From Thermoleophilaceae bacterium (GTDB taxonomy: Bacteria > Actinomycetota > Thermoleophilia > Solirubrobacterales > Thermoleophilaceae), in the NCBI GenBank assembly GCA_040901445.1, contig JBBDYQ010000025.1, positions 311,925 through 375,924 of the forward strand: DNA of 64,000 bases, in the 5' to 3' direction. The first letter of the stretch is position 1. Each line of letters opens with the position of its first letter. Of the stretch, positions 55,758 to 58,321 are shown in pieces. The notes below the pieces were generated by a model. That model had not been told where the DNA came from and made no database searches. It saw nothing but the letters and a program-made list of their open reading frames with translations. A program made the translations under genes and the position numbers.

Positions 55758-55803
55758 TCGATTGAACGGACCCGGCCCCTGAGGGCACTATCCGTTCAAT
55801 CGA
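55758..55803. terminator. Bidirectional hairpin between convergent recG and methyltransferase genes
   Basis: TCGATTGAACGGA 55758-55770 and its exact complement 55791-55803 enclose 20 bases. The right arm is the last coding stretch of the minus-strand methyltransferase (Arg-Leu-Asn-Gly), whose TAG stop is in the loop; the left arm lies 7 bp after the recG stop. It can fold in either transcript. The loop is long and there is no T-run. Confidence 0.5.
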
Positions 55804-56453
55804 GCCGCCCGCCCCGTGATGACCTCGATCGTCCCGGTCGGCGTGCGCAGCCGGTCGGTCACACGCACCTCGGCGAGGCCGGCCTCGGCCAGCATCGCCG
55901 GCAGCTTGCCCGCCACGCTCGCCGACGTGGTGGCGAAGCCGTCGAGCAGCTGGACCGTCCCAAGCACTGCCACGCGCATCAGCGGGTCCTGCGAGCGCCC
56001 CAGGTCGCCCACCACCAGGCGCCCGCCCGGGCGCAGCACCCGCAGCGCCTCCGCCGCCGTGCGCCGCTTGTCGACGTCCTCGAGGTGGTGGAAGAAGAGC
56101 GTGGAGAGCACCGCGTCGAAGCGGCCGTCGTCGTACGGCAGCTCGGTGGAGAATCCCTCGTCCAGGTCGAGCTCCACGCGCGCGCCGGCCGCCTTGCGGC
56201 GCGCCCTGGCGAGCACCTCCGGGTCGGCGTCGAGACCAGTCACCCGCGCCGCGGGCTCCGCGGCCAGCGCGGCCAGCGCCAGCGTGCCCGTGCCGCAGCC
56301 CATGTCGAGCACCTCCTCGCCGGGTGCAAGCGCGGCCCGCTCGAGCACCCGCGCCTTGAAGCTCCGCTCGCGAGTCGTGACCGCGACCACCGGGTCGAAC
56401 AGCGCCGTGAGCGCCGGGAACCGCAGCGCGGGCTTGTAGGCCTGGTCAGCCAT
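55788..56453 (-). CDS. Class I SAM-dependent methyltransferase, UbiE-like
   Basis: 221 residues. Motif I is EEVLDMGCGTGTLALAAL, then VTGLDADPEVLARARRKA, DAVLSTLFFHHLEDV (post-I/II) and EALRVLRPGGRLVVGDLGR. This is the general ubiquinone/menaquinone-type methyltransferase fold; the small-molecule substrate is unknown. Its ATG lies in the last 8 bp of the Ddn-like gene, so the two are translationally coupled and may act on related redox chemistry. Confidence 0.88.
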   Translation of the reverse strand: MADQAYKPALRFPALTALFDPVVAVTTRERSFKARVLERAALAPGEEVLDMGCGTGTLALAALAAEPAARVTGLDADPEVLARARRKAAGARVELDLDEGFSTELPYDDGRFDAVLSTLFFHHLEDVDKRRTAAEALRVLRPGGRLVVGDLGRSQDPLMRVAVLGTVQLLDGFATTSASVAGKLPAMLAEAGLAEVRVTDRLRTPTGTIEVITGRAARLNG

Positions 56454-56859
56454 CGAGGTCGATCCGGATGGTCAGCAGGTCGCTGCCCATCACGGGCACC
56501 ATGCGGGCGCTGGTCCAGGCCGTGCCCCGGGCGATCCGGTCCAGCCGCGCGCGCGGGTCGTCATCCGGGAGGACGCGGGCGCTTCCGGAACGCCAGCGCC
56601 GCCCCGCCTTCACCCGCACGCGCGGGTTCGCCTGAAGGTTGCGCACGTAGCCGGAGCGGCGGCCGTGCTCGGCCACGATCCAGAAGACGTCGCCGTCCAG
56701 GCCGTTCGTGACCGGCGTCCGGCGCACCCGGCCGCTCTTGCGGCCGACGGTCTCGAGCAGCGCGGTGCCAGGGAAGGGAATGCCCGCACGGTGCACGCCG
56801 CGCACGAGCGGGTTCGCCCCGAACCGCGAGGCGGCGGTGGATAAGCGGCGCTTGTCCAC
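56446..56859 (-). CDS. Deazaflavin (F420)-dependent nitroreductase-like protein
   Basis: 137 residues of the Ddn/FDOR split-barrel family. GTALLETVGRKSGRVRRTPVTN and GRRSGYVRNLQANPRVRVKAG are the recognisable segments; the GRKSGRVR region contacts F420 in relatives. Natural substrates are unknown (quinone reduction is shown for Mycobacterium Ddn). Its presence implies that the organism makes F420. It overlaps the methyltransferase start by 8 bp. Confidence 0.86.
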   Translation of the reverse strand: MDKRRLSTAASRFGANPLVRGVHRAGIPFPGTALLETVGRKSGRVRRTPVTNGLDGDVFWIVAEHGRRSGYVRNLQANPRVRVKAGRRWRSGSARVLPDDDPRARLDRIARGTAWTSARMVPVMGSDLLTIRIDLDG

Positions 56860-56888
56860 GCGCGAATCCTACGCGCCGGATCAACCAC

Positions 56889-57770
56889 CTAGGCCGCCGG
56901 GAGCAGCGTCGGCTCGAGGGGTAGCGCGCCGGTCTCGAAGCCGTCGAGCAGGTCGGAAGCCGTCGATGCTCCTCCGAGCCCCAGCGAGTCCGCAATCCAC
57001 TCGACGGCGGCCGCCGGCTGCCAGTCCGCCAGCGTCACCGCCCCGTGGCGCTTGGCCAGACGCGCGCCGTCGGCCCCCAGCACGAGCGGCACGTGCGCAT
57101 AGGACGGCGCTCGCAGCGCGAGCAGCCGCGCGAGCAGAAGCTGGCGCGGGGTGGAATCGAGCAGGTCGTCGCCGCGCACCACCTCCTCGACGCCCTGTTC
57201 GGCATCGTCCACCACGACGGCGAGGTGGTACGCGGGCGTGCCGTCGCCGCGCCGCAGGACGAGGTCGTCCACCCTGCCCTCGATCTCGCCGTGCAGCCGG
57301 TCGCGGAAGCGCACGACCTCGCCGCCGGCGTCCAGGCGCAGCGCGGGTGGGCGGCCCGATCGCTCGCGGTCCACACGGTCGGCGGCGCTCAGCCGCCGGC
57401 AGGTGCCCGGATACGCACCCTCCGGCAGGGCGCCGTGCGCCGCTTCCGTGGAGGTGCGGATCTCCGCCCGGGTGCACCAGCACGGGTAGACGCGACCTGC
57501 GTCCTCGAGCTGCGCGATCGCCTCCCCATAGCGGGCGATCCGGGACGACACGCGCACGGGCTCCCCGTCCCAGTCGATCCCGATCGCGCGCAGGTCTGCG
57601 AGCTGGACGCGCTCGTGCTCGGGGCGGGAGCGAATCGGGTCGAGGTCGTCGATCCGCATGAGGAAGCGCGACCCGGCCGAGCGCGCGAACAGCCACGCGA
57701 GCAGCGCGGTGCGCAGGTTGCCCAGGTGGAGGCGGCCCGTCGGGCTCGGTGCATAGCGGCCGTCCGCGAT
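56889..57770 (-). CDS. gluQ: Glutamyl-Q tRNA(Asp) synthetase, non-canonical start
   Basis: Attaches glutamate to queuosine in tRNA-Asp. The frame reads ADGRYAPSPTGRLHLGN, with the HIGH motif (HLGN) that any active enzyme needs, upstream of the first ATG (57659). No ATG, GTG, TTG or CTG precedes that motif in frame; the codon before ADGR is ATC at 57770, 6 nt after a TACGTT box. An ATC start gives 293 residues, the normal size. The zinc site is CWC...Y..TC (CWCTRAEI) and the KMSKS equivalent is RLAKRHGA. No fused anticodon-binding domain. Divergent from rsmD. Confidence 0.8.
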   Translation of the reverse strand: MADGRYAPSPTGRLHLGNLRTALLAWLFARSAGSRFLMRIDDLDPIRSRPEHERVQLADLRAIGIDWDGEPVRVSSRIARYGEAIAQLEDAGRVYPCWCTRAEIRTSTEAAHGALPEGAYPGTCRRLSAADRVDRERSGRPPALRLDAGGEVVRFRDRLHGEIEGRVDDLVLRRGDGTPAYHLAVVVDDAEQGVEEVVRGDDLLDSTPRQLLLARLLALRAPSYAHVPLVLGADGARLAKRHGAVTLADWQPAAAVEWIADSLGLGGASTASDLLDGFETGALPLEPTLLPAA

Positions 57771-57776
57771 TGGCCC

Positions 57777-57786
57777 AACGTACCCT
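57777..57786. promoter_or_regulatory. Overlapping divergent -10 boxes of gluQ and rsmD
   Basis: AACGTACCCT: TACCCT (57781-57786) ends 7 nt before the rsmD ATG on the plus strand; TACGTT (complement of 57777-57782) ends 6 nt before the ATC of gluQ on the minus strand. The two hexamers share TA, so the promoters would exclude each other. Confidence 0.45.
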
Positions 57787-57793
57787 CCGCGGC

Positions 57794-58321
57794 ATGAGGG
57801 TCGTCGCCGGAGCCCACAGGGGCCGCCGCCTGCACGCGCCGCCGGGGCGCGACACGCGCCCCACCTCCGATCGCGTGCGCGAGGCGCTGTTCCAGCTGCT
57901 CGGCCCGCTCGGCGGCGTGCGCGTGCTCGACCTGTTCGCCGGATCGGGGGCGCTCGCCATCGAGGCGCTCAGCCGCGGTGCGGCCTCGGCCGTGCTGGTG
58001 GAGCAGGACCCGCGCGCGGTCGCCGTGATCCGGCGCAACCTCGAGCCGCTCGCCGCCGACGCCGAGGTCCGCCGCGGCGACGCCCTGGCGTTCCTCCGCG
58101 CCTACCAGGGCCCGCCGTTCGGCCTCGTGCTGATCGATCCCCCATATAGTTCCGGCTCGCGGCTCGCGGGGGGCCTCGGCCATCGGCTGCCGCGTGTGAT
58201 CACCGAAAACGCCCGCATCGTGACCGAATCCGACAAGCGCACACCCCTCCGGCTCGAGCTGCCGCTCGAGTCCGAGCGCACCTACGGGGACACGCGCATC
58301 GCCATCCACCGTGGAGTTTGA
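57794..58321 (+). CDS. rsmD: 16S rRNA (guanine-N2) methyltransferase RsmD
   Basis: Methylates G966 of 16S rRNA (E. coli numbering). 175 residues from ATG 57794. MRVVAGAHRGRRLHAPPG at the start, SDRVREALFQLL, VLDLFAGSGALAIEALSRGA (motif I) and VLIDPPYSSGS (catalytic NPPY-type loop). The GTG at 57749 is rejected because the family starts at MRVVAG. It overlaps coaD by 11 bp, the universal rsmD-coaD pair. Confidence 0.95.
   Translation: MRVVAGAHRGRRLHAPPGRDTRPTSDRVREALFQLLGPLGGVRVLDLFAGSGALAIEALSRGAASAVLVEQDPRAVAVIRRNLEPLAADAEVRRGDALAFLRAYQGPPFGLVLIDPPYSSGSRLAGGLGHRLPRVITENARIVTESDKRTPLRLELPLESERTYGDTRIAIHRGV

Follow-up and report, generated by a model that had tools for sequence, protein, structure and literature searches.

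The window analysed here, 64,000 nucleotides of a Thermoleophilaceae genome, carries on its minus strand a frame (56889–57770; 293 codons plus stop, counted from an ATC at 57768–57770) that encodes tRNA glutamyl-Q(34) synthetase (GluQRS, gene gluQ). The protein gave full-length matches above the curated cut-offs of two family models, NF004315 (310 bits, cut-off 250) and TIGR03838 (302, cut-off 276.7). Translation from the ATC reads IADGRYAPSPTGRLHLGN, and the conserved N-terminus, GRYAPSPTGRLHLGN, starts at codon 4 of this count. Both the HIGH-type motif HLGN and the KMSKS-like motif LAKRHG are present, and H15, G17, K240 and R241 are invariant across 21 aligned sequences. The protein resembles GluQRS/YadB also in the invariant C97, C99, Y120 and C124 of the zinc-type site, and it is 56–72% identical to 20 aligned relatives; it differs from them in that its gene has no canonical start codon.

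Between the ATC and a TGA upstream of it (57969–57971, minus strand), the gluQ frame runs through 66 open codons, which include no ATG, GTG, TTG or CTG. A canonical start farther upstream is thus ruled out, and the original prediction, which had described about 100 nt free of such codons, slightly understated the case. The near-cognates in this stretch are AGG 57866 and ATC 57944, with no others. As had also been predicted, the HIGH-bearing N-terminus lies upstream of the earliest in-frame ATG (57657–57659, minus strand). This ATG begins the mechanically listed open reading frame, whose 256-aa product lacks HIGH. The ATC at 57768–57770 lies outside any homopolymer and differs from ATG by one substitution, at the place and in the frame expected for a start. 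Twelve nucleotides before it stands a Shine–Dalgarno-like GGAGGG (57783–57788, minus strand), which under a leaderless model would lie upstream of the transcript. The lack of a canonical start near the position where homologues begin is therefore confirmed.

We compared gluQ with the other genes of the window. Among 40 other frames scanned, 22 had a family match reaching the N-terminus, 7 had a match that did not (in one case because the window ends there) and 11 had none; adding coaD to the 22 gave 23 control genes. All 23 have a canonical start, which in 22 falls between 15 codons before and 3 codons inside the start of the match. The remaining one, recG, has its nearest canonical start 45 codons before the match, ahead of an N-terminal stretch that the model does not cover. 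Two genes considered as start-less, rlmN and ribBA, were rejected when GTG 11197 and ATG 48888 were found 3 and 2 codons inside their matches. gluQ is thus alone among 24 window genes in having no canonical start near its family match. The genome comprises 25 contigs and has a listed completeness of 100%. No frameshift was found in the 23 control-gene matches, with which one wrong base at 57768 would be compatible.

Apart from its start, gluQ is in good condition. The frame contains no stop, and the protein departs from consensus at 2 of the 93 sites common to at least 95% of the other sequences (46 of 48 gluQ proteins were aligned, of 250–330 residues; L033 and L034 were omitted for length). 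Other aligned copies depart at 0–5 of these sites and a frameshifted copy, that of G016, at 34. Two changed sites give no sign of long decay, and we found neither the relaxed constraint nor the broken frame of a pseudogene: the start alone is missing. It follows that disuse of the gene, if that is its state, must go back to a recent change; an intact gluQ would be equally expected of a working gene. No second gluQ-type gene was found in the 3.54-Mb genome. Two further matches were adjoining pieces at 459 kb of contig C25, where the frame reads RVRVRFAPSPTGTLHIGG; judged by this N-terminus, we take that gene for an ordinary glutamyl-tRNA synthetase. In two other genomes (L116 of G016 and L033 of G008) gluQ is split between two frames, and these are either broken copies or sequence errors. 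A scan of viral contigs found no relative.

To see how relatives begin the gene, we scanned 232 genomes of the order and obtained a gluQ match at E ≤ 1e-60 in 118, this genome included; at most ten candidates were scored per genome, so that the absences are rough. Starts were read in all 118 loci, 112 of them placed by motif search and the other 6 by tblastn. In 115 of the 117 relatives, a canonical start (GTG 66, ATG 40, TTG 9) lies no more than 24 codons ahead of the Arg of the GR[FY]APSP motif, whereas ATC stands at the window's codon position in 0 of the 117. The genomes are akin to one another and these counts are therefore not independent. The claim that the ATC falls exactly where homologues start holds within a range: the nearest canonical start is 3–8 codons ahead of the Arg in 76 of 117 relatives, and it is 4 codons ahead, at the place of the ATC, in 9 of 117. 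Reading from the ATC, MADGR agrees with homologues such as L014 (TTG GCC GAC GGC). The best-scoring relative, L006, has GTG at the exact position of the window's GTT 57779.

Two relatives have no canonical start nearby. In L123 a CTG stands 5 codons ahead of the Arg. In L011 (G054), where no canonical start lies within 111 codons of the motif, a CTG 7 codons ahead of the Arg is directly followed by an ATC 6 codons ahead of it. We rejected this ATC as a parallel to the window's, because it aligns with an internal Ile codon of L013, which belongs to the same genus and starts ATG GAG ATC; a non-canonical start thus occurs at least once more in the order. Other candidates were also set aside: among 14 loci of genus g22, 12 have GTG and 1 has ATG 17 codons upstream, and L033 is a frameshifted copy. 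L010 has nothing canonical but an ATG 17 codons upstream. Four gluQ genes of genus g20 (L123, L128, L129 and L132) have a CTG 5–9 codons before the motif Arg, set in CTGA, with the nearest canonical start 19–51 codons upstream. A CTG start overlapping an upstream stop is possible there.

Six nucleotides before the ATC lies TACGTT (57777–57782, minus strand), a −10-like box of the form TANNNT in a layout that relatives share. TANNNT has been described as the signal of leaderless genes in Actinobacteria (PMC3160421, PMC3898074). Among 109 relatives placed by motif search and with a canonical start within 25 codons, a gap of 6 nt separates the end of a TANNNT from the nearest start in 10 cases, one of 7 nt in 19, one of 8 nt in 10 and one of 9 nt in 1 (40 of 109). 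The number expected, from the density 30–120 nt upstream, is 0.17 per spacing. We also sampled 264 kb of this genome, namely the window and ten 20-kb stretches. Here TANNNT at spacings of 6–8 nt preceded coding-like GTG frames 23 times (3.0 expected) and coding-like ATG frames 15 times (3.3 expected), while ATC frames were not enriched (2, one of them the gluQ site, versus 3.5 expected). These numbers indicate that the genome uses leaderless genes beginning with GTG and ATG, and that ATC is no general start; within the 264 kb, no general use of ATC to begin leaderless genes was seen. Leaderless-looking starts in the sample are more often GTG (23) than ATG (15).

The density of TANNNT in the sample is 211 in 528,000 strand positions (0.0004 per position), which puts the chance of finding one at spacings of 6–8 nt before the ATC at about 0.1%. 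This figure overstates the case because the TA is already supplied by the rsmD box described below. The predicted leaderless layout of gluQ is supported by the relatives and by the same-genome sample, as the original prediction had proposed. Like the Actinobacterial leaderless genes described in PMC3160421 and PMC3898074, gluQ has its box 6 nt before the first codon, within the 6–8 nt spacing, and no predicted leader; unlike them, it would begin with AUC, where theirs begin with AUG or GUG. Strong structure at the 5' end does not appear to be an added handicap, since the folding energy of the first 50 nt, −14.4 kcal/mol, is unremarkable beside the −15.8 averaged over 24 leaderless-looking relatives.

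Divergent from gluQ lies rsmD (57794–58321, plus strand), which encodes the 16S rRNA G966 methyltransferase (TIGR00095, above cut-off). It starts with ATG 57794, 7 nt behind a −10-like TACCCT (57781–57786, plus strand). This box overlaps the TACGTT, again as had been noted, the two having TA 57781–57782 in common; the joint sequence is AACGTACCCT at 57777–57786. The predicted transcription starts of gluQ and rsmD are 24 positions apart. According to PMC12825309, 18 bp is the commonest start distance in bacterial bidirectional promoters, with 10 and 23 bp also common. The gluQ–rsmD pair resembles the promoters with shared −10 symmetry described there and in PMC10268837 in that its boxes share TA and its 24 positions come near the 23-bp class. 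It differs in that both sides are predicted to be leaderless coding starts. The geometry being close to published distances, it is plausible that the rsmD promoter also transcribes gluQ from its reverse face, which would be a known type of arrangement. Overlapping divergent TANNNT pairs occur at 17 sites in the 264 kb. One of them (L241:3830) is flanked by a GTG at a distance of 6 nt and, on the opposite side, by an ATG at 10 nt; two neighbouring pairs (L234:17342 and 17347, to 17356) are jointly flanked by an ATG on each side, at 7 and 8 nt.

In 28 other genomes of the family rsmD was found, with recG upstream on the same strand within 1.5 kb in 28 of 28, and gluQ lay beside rsmD in none of these. 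In the window, three minus-strand genes (a methyltransferase-like gene, a 137-aa gene and gluQ; 55788–57770) stand between recG and rsmD. The gluQ–rsmD junction thus appears, from this comparison of gene order, to be particular to this lineage, and its formation is a possible route by which the start region of gluQ was remade. An opposite-strand methyltransferase-like gene between recG and rsmD is also seen in G014 and G022. The idea that gluQ travels with its two downstream neighbours was rejected, neither being found beside gluQ in 49 other loci (flanks of at most 1.5 kb).

Within the family, gluQ is patchily distributed. We found it at E ≤ 1e-55 in 14 of 31 genomes and in 7 of the 12 that are at least 90% complete; part of the absences fall in incomplete genomes, and a fifteenth genome (G030) has a gluQ fragment at a contig end. 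By comparison, tgt was found in 26 of 31 and in 12 of 12 of the genomes at least 90% complete. No queA scored above cut-off in any of the 31, although weaker matches occurred in 4, including G014, which has gluQ. Searches of this genome for queA, queG and Vut_1, a family of queuosine-precursor transporters, found none of the three. Its tgt (L035, 176351–177493 of contig C9) encodes the pocket motif GGSLG. According to PMC11570991, queuine-inserting TGTs typically have GG[LS][AS]G, as against GGLAVG in E. coli. By this motif the Tgt is close to the queuine type, though not identical with it. Queuosine, if made here at all, would probably be made via salvage. These findings suggest a tgt-only, queuine-salvaging lineage still keeping gluQ in places. 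GluQRS would then have a substrate only as salvage provides it, and loss of gluQ would be cheap. Queuosine in tRNA-Asp would report on tgt and not on gluQ, whose product would be glutamyl-queuosine.

Start codons of the AUU, AUC and AUA class are known in bacteria, with infC as an example, and they occur in leadered mRNAs helped by a Shine–Dalgarno sequence. gluQ is like them in having such a codon at its start and differs in having no predicted leader. The infC gene of this genome (L243; 439420 of contig C25) has a GTG two codons before an ATC, ahead of the family match, and is at most a candidate for a second such start. AUC is among the rare bacterial starts listed in PMC4611024 and PMC9094748. 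The same review, PMC4611024, counts AUU, AUC and AUA among the codons discriminated against by IF3 and states that GUG, UUG and CUG cannot substitute for AUG on leaderless mRNA. In M. tuberculosis, however, leaderless genes begin with GTG, and likewise with ATG, about as often as leadered genes do (PMC3898074); together with the lead of GTG in the present genome, this argues that the leaderless AUG rule is not strict in such genomes. PMC10158994 reports on a reconstituted system whose initiator tRNAs carried N-formylmethionine: at 1.5 µM IF3 the codon/anticodon pairs AUC/UAU and AUC/AAU gave no product (AUC/CAU being outside this result) and AUU/CAU dropped to 31%. Among the matches listed in the open literature, judged by title and the opening of the abstract, none concerned an AUC-initiated leaderless bacterial gene.

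These observations are best accommodated, with a probability of roughly 0.5, if gluQ is untranslated or barely translated through a recent change of its start codon, the gene being dispensable. The minus-strand face of the bidirectional promoter would drive full-length gluQ, TACGTT serving gluQ and TACCCT serving rsmD. RNA polymerase would start at 57770 or 57771 and yield a leaderless mRNA with AUC as its first codon. Such an mRNA would receive no Shine–Dalgarno aid, and initiation would rest on the start codon at the 5' end. With no leader and with this dependence, AUC would be expected to initiate rarely or never. The codon would formerly have been ATG, and gluQ would represent a recent start-codon loss, or a strong dimming, in a gene that the lineage can spare. 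The original prediction had left the choice between a rare start and a crippling point change. The absence of ATC from all 117 relatives, taken with its lack of enrichment in the 264 kb, speaks for a start that has changed rather than for a rare one that is established.

The changed base could also lie in the data: an assembly or sequencing error, the cell itself having ATG, is a distinct though minor possibility. ATG is one substitution away in the expected place and frame, the gene is otherwise intact, and the ATC is known from one genome. The listed completeness of 100% in 25 contigs speaks against it, as do the 23 frameshift-free controls and the position of the site outside a homopolymer, with which a single wrong base is nevertheless compatible. 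That the AUC works, the initiator tRNA decoding it at the 5' end at a low rate sufficient for a modification enzyme of which the cell needs little, we consider unlikely; initiation would then possibly be sensitive to IF3 and to the availability of 70S ribosomes. The intact, constrained protein, the promoter layout shared with relatives, the ATC at the predicted first base, the agreement of MADGR with homologues and the listing of AUC as a rare start are all consistent with a working codon. The 0 of 117 relatives, the lack of enrichment behind TANNNT, the discrimination by IF3 and the silent AUC pairs, none of them AUC/CAU, argue against it. Slightly more doubtful again is an elaboration in which a natural AUC-first leaderless mRNA is translated at a usefully low level off the reverse face of the rsmD promoter, dimming a tRNA-modification enzyme and tying it to the levels of IF3 and 70S ribosomes. 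Finally, it is very improbable that translation starts elsewhere, either on a longer transcript via GGAGGG 57783–57788, from a non-AUG codon such as GTT 57779, ATC 57770 or ATC 57944, or at the internal ATG 57659. The GGAGGG 12 nt before the ATC and the GTG of L006 in place of the window's GTT would fit such a start, but the internal ATG loses the HIGH motif, the 66 upstream codons offer no canonical start and the TANNNT layout predicts the ATC itself as the start. Taken together, the evidence makes it most likely that a dispensable gene has lost its start codon here, or that the gluQ ATC is an error.

If the ATC is real and unused, the locus captures gene loss at its first step, with one base of the start changed and the rest intact. 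If it is used, gluQ would contradict the E. coli-derived rule by which leaderless mRNAs require AUG, and would offer a clean natural test case. A gene caller restricted to ATG, GTG and TTG would start gluQ at 57659 and so report an enzyme without its active-site motif.
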